A DNA stretch of 52,490 bases from a virus. The translations under genes were made by a program, and so were the position numbers. This document shows, piece after piece, positions 19,096-35,055 of the stretch. The DNA lies in the IMG/VR virus record IMGVR_UViG_3300025655_000050, positions 1 through 52,490 of that record. The stretch is one strand, 5' to 3'. Position 1 is the stretch's first letter; each line of letters starts with the position of its first letter. The notes under the pieces are model-generated. The model was not told where the DNA came from and ran no database searches. It saw only the letters and a list, made by a program, of their open reading frames with translations.

Positions 19096-19107
19096 TGATC
19101 TTCTTAG

Positions 19108-19178
19108 TAGCGTGTCAGGGATTCGAACCCTCCCGTAGTGGATATGAACCACCCATGCAACCTTTACACCTTCACGCG
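19108..19178 (-). tRNA. tRNA-Met-like (CAU), imperfect
   Basis: Anticodon stem GGTGG/CCACT with loop TTCATAT (anticodon CAT); D-stem GTGT/GCAT; T-arm GAGGG/CCCTG with loop TTCGAAT. The acceptor pairs over five central positions (GCGTG/CACGC), but pairs 1-72 (C/T), 7-66 (A/A) and 49-65 (G/G) mismatch. It may be an initiator-like, Ile-CAU or degenerate tRNA. A TATATTTAC box lies 8 nt upstream (19187-19195). Confidence 0.65.
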
Positions 19179-19186
19179 ATATAACT

Positions 19187-29929: not shown

Positions 29930-30040
29930 GTTGGAAAGAAATAAAATGTAAACATTATAATTAAACTCTTTGATTAAAGATAAACGATAAGTAAATGAAT
30001 TGCGACAGCACGCCCTGTTATAACTGAAATAACTTATAAT

Positions 30041-30172
30041 GTGACGACTTATAAACCATTATCAGGTGGTTGTGTTTATTGTAAATATGTTGTAAACATT
30101 AAAACTCCACAATACTTGGGTGAAGGAGTACCGAGACAACATCCCACTGAAATTTGGGCAAAGAGTTTTTAA
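30041..30172 (+). CDS. Small CxxC protein, start uncertain
   Basis: GTG at 30041 gives 43 residues (TTYKPLSGGCVYCKYVVNIK, then QHPTEIWAKSF). The frame is open and coding-like from 29999 (TARPVITEITYN), and an ATG at 29995 lies one base out of frame. The gene may be frameshifted or use a non-ATG start. CVYC may bind metal. Confidence 0.4.
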   Translation: MTTYKPLSGGCVYCKYVVNIKTPQYLGEGVPRQHPTEIWAKSF

Positions 30173-30189
30173 TTTAATAATAAACAATT

Positions 30190-31207: not shown

Positions 31208-31384
31208 ATGGCAAGATTAGAACAATATTTAGTAGAAACACCGGCAGGTGAACAATTTAAAGTATTTGCAGCAAACACATATGATGCAGGTAAACAAGTG
31301 CTAGCTAAGATAGCATTTAGAAATTCACTTGTAGTTAGCAACACTTTAGTGTCACGTCCTGAAATGATGCAGGTCGAGATATAA
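31208..31384 (+). CDS. Small protein of 58 residues
   Basis: ATG at 31208 (MARLEQYLVETPAGEQFKVF, then ANTYDAGKQVLAKIAFRNS), 16 nt after the previous stop. It has the look of a small strand-helix protein seen in many phages. Function unknown. Confidence 0.55.
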   Translation: MARLEQYLVETPAGEQFKVFAANTYDAGKQVLAKIAFRNSLVVSNTLVSRPEMMQVEI

Positions 31385-31392
31385 ACTTCTAG

Positions 31393-31499
31393 CAAGGAGT
31401 TCGAGTAGCATGAAGATGTGAGGATATATGACCGATCCATTCACCTCTGTTGTCACAAATCATCGTGAACCATATAGAACCGGGCGTTACGGCTCCTTG
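31393..31499 (+). ncRNA. Structured RNA candidate
   Basis: CAAGGAG (31393-31399) pairs with CTCCTTG (31493-31499), enclosing shorter helices (GGAT/ATCC, GTCAC/GTGAAC). No open frame. It is less AT-rich than the surroundings. TGTCACAAA inside is shared with the element at 36428-36522 and, in reverse, with the leader at 27484. Confidence 0.45.
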
Positions 31500-31511
31500 A
31501 AGTTAAACCAA

Positions 31512-31577
31512 AAGCTCAAAATAATATACAATATGGATAAAGTAATTGATTAACGTACATATTTTTGTTTTGAGCTT
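31512..31577 (+). repeat. 10-bp perfect inverted repeat
   Basis: AAGCTCAAAA and TTTTGAGCTT enclose 46 AT-rich bases just before the 31596 gene. It lacks a U-tract, so it is not an obvious terminator. It could be a regulator site or the closing stem of a leader RNA. Confidence 0.5.
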
Positions 31578-31595
31578 ATTTAAAAACTAGAACAA

Positions 31596-32679: not shown

Positions 32680-32712
32680 TCATGGAGAACACCTATTTCT
32701 ACTGTTCCGATA

Positions 32713-32808
32713 ATGAATGACATAAGAGCAGGCATTCTATTTAGAAGAGCAGCAGAGATATTATCAACAACAAATAAAAATGCGTTAGTGAAATTAATCA
32801 CAAGATAA
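32713..32808 (+). CDS. Mini-protein, 31 residues
   Basis: ATG at 32713 (MNDIRAGILFRRAAEILSTT, then KLITR) ends immediately before the next ATG (TAAATG). A 12-codon frame (32682-32720) precedes it and may be part of a coupling arrangement. Amphipathic helix with a basic end. Confidence 0.35.
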   Translation: MNDIRAGILFRRAAEILSTTNKNALVKLITR

Positions 32809-33039
32809 ATGAAATATGCCGTAGGAGACTATATAGAAACAAAGTATTTCTGGCCTGGCTCCCACGGCAAAAGTGAATATAAACGTGGGCAAGTCACAAA
32901 AATAACAAAAGACCATTATCATATTGATTTCTCTGATGGATACAATCCAAAGAGATTAGGTATAAAAATGGTTGAGAGATTATCAAGGAAATTTGATCCA
33001 GGATCAGGATCACCAAGAAAATTTAAATTTCTAACCTAG
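32809..33039 (+). CDS. Small barrel protein, KOW/Tudor-like
   Basis: 76 residues. GDYIETKYFW, KRGQVTKITKDHYHIDFSDG and GIKMVERLSRKF outline a compact five-strand barrel, as in small RNA/DNA-binding KOW modules. It ends just before the large structured RNA region. The interrupted gene on the other side of that region (33612) starts in the same style. Confidence 0.5.
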   Translation: MKYAVGDYIETKYFWPGSHGKSEYKRGQVTKITKDHYHIDFSDGYNPKRLGIKMVERLSRKFDPGSGSPRKFKFLT

Positions 33040-33593
33040 CTTCACTATGCGTCTTATGAGAACAGCTTGTTGTGCTTGCACTTAAAAGCTAGGAAGTTCT
33101 AAGCTTGTAAATGAAGATCCATGACACACGTCAATAAAGATTTGAATCTAATGAGATGGGTACATTAGAACAAGCAAGTATAATTATTTACGTCACTATC
33201 ACACAGCTTTTCAGTTCTTGAACAAAGAAAGCCCTGGTTGGAAGGAAACCTAGGGCCCTTGAGATAGCCACTTATAGAGCATTAATGTTACAGTGGGTTC
33301 GCGCTAACCTTACCGCAGATAGGTACTTAGTTTGGTTCATAGTGACGTAAATATTATAAACTACTGCGTCTCCTGCCCTTGGCAGTTACACTATTGTTAA
33401 GTGGGATAATGTTGGCGTAGGAATTAACTTCACCGCAACGTGGTGAAAAAGGAAAGGCCGCTATGTTAGCAATATTATAGTTTGTATAGAAGTAATTGAT
33501 CAGATGAAAATACAAAGGAAGTTTATTGTGAGAAGCCGATCACGCTGAGCTGATAACTCAGAGATTGCAGGTTCGACTCCTGTCGTTGCTACT
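33035..33593 (+). ncRNA. Candidate large ornate non-coding RNA with tRNA-like 3' end
   Basis: About 560 bases without a usable frame but full of helices. CCTAGCTT/AAGCTAGG (33035-33042 with 33086-33093); CTAATG/CATTAG (33148 with 33163); a 14-bp perfect helix ATTTACGTCACTAT/ATAGTGACGTAAAT (33186-33199 with 33339-33352) enclosing GCCCTGGTT/AACCTAGGGC (33231-33256) and CCACT/AGTGG (33268 with 33292). Beyond it lie CTGCC/GGCAG (33373-33385) and TTCACC/GGTGAA (33429-33447). The element ends in a tRNA-Ile-like fold. Size, phage setting and tRNA linkage recall GOLLD and ROOL RNAs. I cannot confirm family membership from memory. Its first bases overlap the 32809 gene. Confidence 0.6.
33519..33591 (+). 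tRNA. tRNA-Ile(GAU)-like, acceptor stem broken
   Basis: Spacing is canonical: D-stem GTGA/TCAC, anticodon stem CTGAG/CTCAG with loop CTGATAA (GAT at 33552-33554), 5-nt variable region, T-stem GCAGG/CCTGT with loop TTCGACT. The 3' acceptor strand CGTTGCT finds no partner directly upstream (AAGTTTA). A partial partner, TAGCAAT, lies 50 nt further up at about 33467. This is either a tRNA relic or the 3' domain of the large RNA. Confidence 0.5.
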
Positions 33594-33611
33594 AATTTTA
33601 TATACATAAAC

Positions 33612-33869
33612 ATGAATAATAAATTTAAAATAGGAGATCATGTTAAATTAGACTATTAATTAGATTCAGTTATTAACTATATATCTAGAGATCATTTACT
33701 TCTTATAACTAAGATTAACTATGAAGAAGAAACATGTGAAATGATATTAGTTAATGGAACAATTACAGTTAATTCAAAGAAACTAAAAATCAAACATAAA
33801 TTCGGAACAACAGATATAAAGTTATTAAAGAAAGTAGATATTTACGAGAGAAGAAAACTAAAAATTTAA
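33612..33869 (+). pseudogene. Small barrel-protein gene interrupted by an in-frame TAA
   Basis: ATG at 33612 reads MNNKFKIGDHVKLDY, then TAA at 33657-33659. The same frame continues without shift for 69 codons (LDSVINYISRDHLLLITKIN ... DIYERRKLKI) to 33869. A single base change would restore an 85-residue KOW-like protein. The end matches the ERRKLDL end of the 30856 gene. No restart codon is obvious after the stop. Confidence 0.65.
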
Positions 33870-33882
33870 AACCAATAAAACT

Positions 33883-34026
33883 ATGGTAAAACATGAATAC
33901 AATGTAATCACTGGATCAAGTTATACTTGTGATGTGATTGGGAGAAAACAATTGATAATCAAAGGCTTTAAGACAGAAAAGAAGCCTAAAAAAACAAAAA
34001 TATGGGAAAAAGCAAAAGTGATGTAG
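33883..34026 (+). CDS. Hypothetical small protein, 47 residues
   Basis: ATG at 33883 (MVKHEYNVITGSSYTCDVIG, then a Lys-rich end). It overlaps the DnaA-like gene by 25 nt, suggesting coupled translation. Beta hairpin plus basic tail. Function unknown. Confidence 0.45.
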   Translation: MVKHEYNVITGSSYTCDVIGRKQLIIKGFKTEKKPKKTKIWEKAKVM

Positions 34027-34536: not shown

Positions 34537-34564
34537 CAATGTATCATCAAAGAATGATACATTG
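34537..34564 (+). other. 11-bp perfect hairpin after the DnaA-like gene
   Basis: CAATGTATCAT and ATGATACATTG with a 6-nt loop, 4 nt after the stop codon. No U-tract follows; instead the mini-tRNA-like element begins 2 nt later. Likely an mRNA 3' end or RNA-processing structure. Confidence 0.6.
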
Positions 34565-34565
34565 A

Positions 34566-34616
34566 GTCACCATGATTCTAGATGTGGTTAGGTTGGTTCG
34601 ATTCCAACATGGTGAC
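34566..34616 (+). ncRNA. 51-nt mini-tRNA-like element
   Basis: An 8-bp acceptor-like stem (GTCACCAT/ATGGTGAC) joined directly to a perfect T-arm (GTTGG, loop TTCGATT, CCAAC). In place of D- and anticodon arms there are only 18 nt, able to form a 3-bp CTA/TAG hairpin. It has the acceptor/T-arm half of a tRNA but no decoding half. A terminator follows at 34654. Confidence 0.55.
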
Positions 34617-34653
34617 CTAAGCAGATGTTTTCTGTTGATTTAGTTGGTTGGTT

Positions 34654-34699: not shown

Positions 34700-34771
34700 A
34701 GAAATTAAGTCAGCCGGGAAGACTATAAAAATCACCTCCTGATGAGGCCCGGACGAAATTTGCACGTTAAT
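34700..34771 (+). ncRNA. Small structured RNA with hammerhead-like core words
   Basis: Between two strong terminators. GTC..CCGGG (about 34710-34719) can pair with CCCGGAC (34748-34754). The words CTGATGAG (34739-34746) and CGAAAT (34754-34759) are spaced as in a hammerhead ribozyme core with a very short stem II. Stems I and III cannot be completed convincingly, so self-cleavage is only a possibility. It is followed by its own terminator. Confidence 0.35.
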
Positions 34772-34804
34772 AAAGCCAGTGAAGTACAGTAGCTGGCTTT
34801 TTTT
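34772..34804 (+). terminator. Rho-independent terminator
   Basis: AAAGCCAG and CTGGCTTT form an 8-bp stem followed by TTTTTTT (part of the stem and tail). Second terminator within 150 bp, implying a separate short transcript between the two. Confidence 0.9.
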
Positions 34805-34956: not shown

Positions 34957-35040
34957 GACTATAACCCTTAGTAGAGAGGCCATAACGCTAGGTGTCATTA
35001 CTTGGAGACGCGAGTTCGAATCCTCGCAGGATAGGTAGTC
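34957..35040 (+). tRNA. tRNA-like element, degenerate
   Basis: 84 nt. Acceptor-like ends GACTA/TAGTC (six pairs if the outer T-A is added). The T-arm is GCGAG/CTCGC, but its loop has eight bases (TTCGAATC) and six extra bases follow before the acceptor. A possible anticodon arm (CTAGG/CTTGG) is mostly G-U. It may be a decayed tRNA or a special fold. No amino acid can be assigned. Confidence 0.4.
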
Positions 35041-35055
35041 AGTAAAAAAAATAAC

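Follow-up and report, generated by a model that had tools for sequence, protein, structure and literature searches.

A tRNA-Ile-like domain at the 3' end of a non-coding locus in a Crassvirales-type phage, a possible transcript-processing signal

RNase P and RNase Z recognise the acceptor/T-arm half of tRNA. Known tRNA-like processing elements, such as mitochondrial tRNA punctuation and mRNA elements cut by RNase P, place a tRNA-like fold between co-oriented genes of a polycistronic unit. tRNAs are also associated with GOLLD and ROOL RNAs, which are found in phages and measure several hundred nt, and some GOLLD RNAs carry tRNAs in their linker (PMC12286853). In tmRNA, a tRNA-like domain that has no anticodon arm closes the whole RNA, and a tag frame is present. 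The locus described here resembles the processing elements in its tRNA-like fold between co-oriented genes of a putatively polycistronic unit, and differs from them in that its cleavage is something we infer. It shares with GOLLD and ROOL RNAs the phage setting, the length and the tRNA association, but matches no covariance model of these classes at E values up to 10 and folds weakly outside one optional domain.

The window, which is the whole stretch of DNA that was analysed (52,490 bp), is an IMG/VR virus record whose major capsid, portal and terminase proteins match the crAss-like PHROGs 11589, 6547 and 6681. Its capsid protein is ∼52% identical to that of crAss-like phages from Bacteroides and human faeces, and by these sequence matches the phage is of the Crassvirales type. 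Intergenic stretches are unusually long in this phage and in related phages. The RNA locus is flanked on one side by a gene for a 76-aa protein with no match in Pfam or PHROG and, 1 kb on, by a gene for a DnaA C-terminal domain, all on the + strand (Table 1). The stop codon of the upstream gene and the first helix of the RNA overlap, so that the RNA starts as a 3' UTR. A scan for promoter-like sites at the locus returned none above chance, and we found no terminator at the 3' end of the RNA; together with the co-oriented flanking genes, this fits an element within a longer transcript. Just downstream (33614–33870), a small gene resembling a KOW-like protein of the related phage L005 is interrupted by an in-frame TAA at ∼33657, and it is missing from the close relative L006 introduced below.

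Table 1. Features of the non-coding locus and its surroundings, in window positions
Feature	Position	Strand	Basis
Upstream gene, 76-aa protein without family	32809–33039	+	ORF list
5' domain, helix CCUAGCUU/AAGCUAGG (33035–33042 with 33086–33093)	33035–33179	+	Alignment, fold
Optional 181-nt multibranched domain, 15-bp perfect closing stem	33180–33360	+	Alignment gap, fold z
Closing stem, 5' arm, 15 bp	33185–33199	+	Inverted-repeat scan against shuffles
Closing stem, 3' arm, 15 bp	33339–33353	+	Inverted-repeat scan against shuffles
Middle domain with hairpin CACC-GCAACGU-GGUG	33361–33466	+	Fold, acceptor-partner scan
tRNA-Ile-like domain: acceptor, extra arm, D-like arm, GAU anticodon arm, T arm, then CTA	33467–33594	+	
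Extra arm between acceptor and D arm, UUUGUAY/RUACAAA (33481–33487 with 33510–33516)	33481–33516	+	
Anticodon arm CUGAG-CUGAUAA-CUCAG, anticodon GAU	33545–33561	+	Rfam tRNA match, local fold
T arm GCAGG-UUCGACU-CCUGU (loop in the relative: UUCGAGU)	33567–33583	+	Fold, pair counts
Second compact tRNA-like element: 8-bp acceptor, T arm, one small arm, no anticodon arm	34563–34617	+	

An earlier note on this DNA had described a structured non-coding RNA that ends in a tRNA-Ile-like domain. The non-coding character and the tRNA-Ile-like end hold, and structure is supported at least in part. As the note had stated, the region has no usable frame: there is no + strand ORF of at least 50 aa in 33040–33882, the frames inside the region on this strand code for 21–27 aa only, and the longest ORF on the opposite strand is 53 aa. 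We conclude that this Crassvirales-type phage indeed has a non-coding locus here. The note's observations on the long stem and the tRNA match likewise stand, but its helix count and its missing acceptor partner do not. It had read structure from a count of at least eight strong helices; we count six local perfect stems of at least 6 bp, compared with 6.8 ± 2.6 in shuffled sequences, and the number of helices is therefore no evidence by itself. The fold of the whole 571 nt has a z-score of −1.3 (10 of 100 shuffles are as good), and the sub-domains other than 33180–33360 reach −1.1 (5' domain, not significant), −0.6 (33361–33469) and +0.3 (tRNA-like domain). Since shuffles do equally well, we rejected both the hairpin count and the whole-region fold as proof of structure, and most of the predicted helices do not exceed chance.

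The 3' end folds like tRNA-Ile: the Rfam tRNA model matches the D, anticodon and T arms at 33528–33583 with 31.4 bits (cut-off 29 bits). An acceptor partner, reported missing in the earlier note, is present, as UAGCAAU (33467–33473) pairs with GUUGCUA (33585–33591). In canonical numbering A1-G2-C3-A4-A5-U6 faces U72-C71-G70-U69-U68-G67, followed by an A7-C66 mismatch, and the discriminator A73 precedes CUA. Local folding of 33467–33595 gives exactly five helices (acceptor, extra, D-like, anticodon and T), that is, a cloverleaf with an additional arm, at a stability not above that of shuffles. In tRNA, two Gs of the D loop dock onto the T loop. The D loop of the domain, GAAGCCGA, is devoid of the canonical GG and cannot make the usual D-loop/T-loop contacts, and the domain is thus tRNA-like rather than an ordinary tRNA. 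A decodable tRNA would have a canonical D loop and a 7-bp acceptor; here the D loop and the A7-C66 pair depart from this, and ARAGORN does not call the domain. When we searched with a covariance model of the domain, the next-best matches were ordinary phage tRNAs, the first being tRNA-Ile(GAT) of the Cellulophaga phage phi4:1. The domain has the anticodon arm and loop, the 5-nt variable region, the T arm and the C after the discriminator base in common with the latter; in contrast to phage tRNA-Ile(GAU), it has, between acceptor and D arm, ∼52 additional nt that include a hairpin, as well as the deviant D loop, the acceptor mismatch and the negative ARAGORN result. We conclude that 33467–33594 is a domain derived from tRNA-Ile(GAU). 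We also considered whether tRNA-like elements carry a special 'CTA' tail, but dropped the idea because ordinary tRNAs of phi4:1 and crAss001 keep the C after the discriminator, often followed by TA.

Upstream of the acceptor, the 5' domain includes, besides its first helix, a half that also bears helices and in which long-range pairings compete. The hairpin of the middle domain exposes a loop, GCAACG (33435–33440), that is complementary to CGUUGC of the acceptor 3' strand and hence offers a rival 6-bp partner. The acceptor strand may pair with this loop instead, possibly as a switch, as judged by complementarity.

A search of related phages, which the earlier note had proposed, yielded one close relative that carries the RNA, at the same position (contig IMGVR_UViG_3300040801_001819, L002/L006), but no homolog beyond it. 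Outside the 181-nt block, 9 of 379 sites in the RNA are substituted (2.4%, ∼98% identity), and the 145 nt of the 5' domain contain no substitution. Synonymous sites in 14 neighbouring genes have changed at 155 of 1363 positions (11.4%; Fisher p = 4e-9 compared with the RNA), and those of the nearest six genes have diverged by 10% (p = 1e-5). The two genes directly upstream, with 4 synonymous changes in 104, are as conserved as the RNA (p = 0.49), and the latter may owe its low divergence to local recombination.

Comparison of the tRNA-like domains revealed that 28 of 29 pairs hold in both phages. One pair of the extra arm is U-A in the window and C-G in the relative, a double compensatory change, and one-sided changes in the acceptor and in the D-like arm (one each) keep pairing, as does C33433U in the middle hairpin. 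In the relative, one pair of the D stem is lost. The T-loop change falls where tRNAs vary, and the anticodon arm, its loop CUGAUAA and the A that precedes the 3' C are unchanged. Random placement of the changes yields a compensatory pair in ∼8% of cases, so that the one observed is a hint only, and the paired percentage, from two sequences only, equals that of the shuffled control. The covariation analysis is based on one homolog of ∼98% identity, and fold z-scores are not significant outside 33180–33360.

The main structural evidence of the earlier note, a 14-bp perfect long-range stem, proved slightly longer, with 15 perfect pairs extendable to ∼20 bp with one bulge. No perfect inverted repeat above 12 bp occurred in 100 dinucleotide shuffles of the region, and the enclosed domain folds better than 200 of 200 shuffles (z = −3.6). 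The stem is thus real and beyond chance, but it sits in an optional block rather than in the core: the relative, ∼98% identical over the RNA, is missing exactly 33180–33360, and the ends of this alignment gap are unique. We considered whether the block is an intron, which would match Rfam or show a U before and a G at the end (group I) or GUGYG...AY ends (group II). It has no Rfam match, starts with AUAAUU and ends with AUAAA. A transposon-like element was rejected as well, there being no target-site duplication and no copies elsewhere; specifically, none was found in relatives, and no IMG/VR record contains both stem arms at the same spacing.

The earlier note had seen hallmarks of GOLLD and ROOL RNAs in the region. 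Rfam cmscan of 32700–33900 at E values up to 10 returned the tRNA match and two chance snoRNA matches only, and thus no GOLLD, ROOL, HEARO, OLE or tmRNA, although a very diverged member of the first four classes could escape a covariance model. Within the sensitivity of the Rfam models, the locus is not a GOLLD or ROOL RNA, nor does it belong to another of the named large RNA families. Searches for distant homologs returned only tRNA-sized fragments with blastn against 50,697 phage records and, with nhmmer set to maximum sensitivity, only tRNA pieces from relatives and isolates. Patterns for the D/anticodon part, and likewise for the 5' domain, retrieved only the known relative from IMG/VR, neighbouring proteins led to the same two contigs, and the covariance model of the tRNA-like domain picked up nothing but tRNAs of the ordinary type and further tRNA-like elements. 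Five matches, each in an unrelated bacterium or archaeon, came from a scan of 84,980 genomes; we read them as chance.

Several other tRNA-like elements are present in these phages. The element at 34563–34617 is of the same kind as the tRNA-Ile-like domain but belongs to a different RNA. Degenerate intergenic elements are found in the window at this position, at 34957–35045 and at about 19105–19180 (− strand), and elsewhere in L009 (651–721), L012 (63–138) and phi4:1 (L024, about 1630–1794, with a long insert); odd ones occur in L005 and the Cellulophaga phage phi14:2 also. Their architectures vary, as the anticodon arm may be missing, the anticodon loop truncated or a long insert present, and they retain the acceptor and T-arm half.

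This shared half, the position between co-oriented genes and the lack of promoter and terminator signals make a tRNA-type signal for processing by RNase P and RNase Z, located within a polycistronic transcript downstream of a structured RNA, the best-supported reading of the locus, to which we assign a tentative probability of about 0.4. The anatomy, the slower change compared with nearby synonymous sites and the optional nature of the 181-nt domain are observations, around which we propose the following mechanism. The region would be a non-coding segment of a polycistronic Crassvirales-type phage transcript in which host tRNA-maturation enzymes cut the acceptor/T-arm helix, RNase P at A33468 and RNase Z after A33591. 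Cleavage would detach the downstream mRNA from the structured RNA (33035–33466) and from the gene that precedes it; alternatively, the tRNA-like element may cap the structured RNA with a stable 3' end. The segment 33035–33466 would then be a non-coding RNA, either separate from or joined to the tRNA-like domain, whose hairpin-closed domain is presumably gained or lost as a unit. The ∼8% chance expectation for the compensatory pair, the paired percentage no different from the shuffled control, the equally conserved upstream genes, the z-score of +0.3, the A7-C66 mismatch, the broken D-stem pair and the rival acceptor partner speak against processing. If a processing signal is indeed present, phages from a group that ranks among the commonest in gut and aquatic settings would use host tRNA enzymes to cut polycistronic transcripts.

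Several of these points are in line with a relic, in which a phage tRNA-Ile gene that has acquired an insertion decays beside a functionless untranslated spacer. A D loop devoid of GG, the acceptor mismatch, the D-stem pair lost in the relative and the silence of ARAGORN agree with decay, as do the differing ways in which the other elements are degenerate, the chance-level folding of most of the region and the broken small gene just downstream. Against decay, the RNA diverges less than nearby synonymous sites and is unchanged over its first 145 nt, most changes that affect pairs keep them, and the optional domain is strongly folded; we regard the relic as an unlikely explanation, if one with some weight. 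The exactly tRNA-Ile-like anticodon arm and loop, constant in the relative together with the A before the 3' C, would suit a tRNA mimic, either a substrate for charging by IleRS or a decoy that engages tRNA-cutting or tRNA-modifying enzymes of the host. As other elements of the same phages have no anticodon arm or an odd anticodon loop, a shared decoy role is unlikely, and on these sequence features we consider mimicry rather improbable.

By analogy with GOLLD and ROOL, the region could form one large ornate RNA, for example a cage that assembles by itself, of which the tRNA-like domain would be a covalent part. The tRNA-like end of such an RNA would, however, be a site of processing in its own right. 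The phage setting, a size of ∼380–560 nt, the attached tRNA domain, the tRNAs in GOLLD linkers and the strongly folded 181-nt domain are in line with this idea. It is nevertheless improbable to a marked degree: no large class of Rfam matches, most of the region folds at chance level, its best-folded domain is dispensable and the distant homologs we sought were not found. It is also unlikely, in our estimate, that Bacteroidota phages (Crassvirales and the unrelated Lightbulbvirus) share a class of large non-coding RNAs with exchangeable domains and insert-bearing tRNA-like caps, of which the locus would be one. A diverged tmRNA is scarcely credible. A precedent exists in phi14:2 (Crassvirales), whose non-coding region encodes a tmRNA of several hundred nt that, like the RNA here, ends in a T arm and acceptor strand (L027 4031–4500), but that RNA has a tag frame and no anticodon arm, and its acceptor closes the whole molecule. 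In our region ARAGORN and Rfam detect no tmRNA, an anticodon arm is present and the acceptor closes 129 nt rather than the entire RNA. The phi14:2 tmRNA (tag GSSVQKLAMVA; RF00023, 46 bits at a cut-off of 47) is missing from the feature table of its record.

The surroundings of the locus outweigh the single RNA, as intergenic regions in these phages contain several unnamed RNA families spread across distant phages, a hammerhead ribozyme candidate and a tmRNA. Unnamed RNA-like modules recur between phages whose helicases are ∼50% identical. The first, with the motif CUCUUUG...AAAGAUAAAC...ACUGUAUCAGCAGUUGUGUUUAUU...CAAAGAGUUUUU, is found at 29960–30175 in the window, in L005 (2545–2790), L012 (1735–1955), phi4:1 (L024 1424–1625) and phi14:2 (L027 1279–1605); besides crAss-like phages, the unrelated phi4:1 thus carries it, under the annotation of a hypothetical protein (gp168). 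The second (GAGUUCUCAGCAAGUAGUUA...GUGACCCUACUCUUAUUA...GAAAGAGGGUGCUAA) occurs in L014 (2640–2940), phi14:2 (L027 3021–3365), L006 (269–491) and phi4:1 (L025 31497–31574). The third has the conserved core CAUAUAGAACCGG and is located at 31383–31590 in the window, in L006 (3424–3600) and in L005 (2420–2545), where it adjoins the first module at the place occupied in the window by the RNA studied here. A further non-coding module is 93% identical between L012 (4928–5064) and L017 (2096–2232), phages whose helicases are each ∼50% identical to that of the window, which points to either strong conservation or recent transfer. Finally, a RAGATH-1 hammerhead ribozyme candidate lies at 34707–34782 on the + strand of the window (35.1 bits, cut-off 56.3, E 0.007). 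L006 is missing a 236-nt stretch that contains this candidate, whose CUGAUGA...GAAA core is intact in the window.
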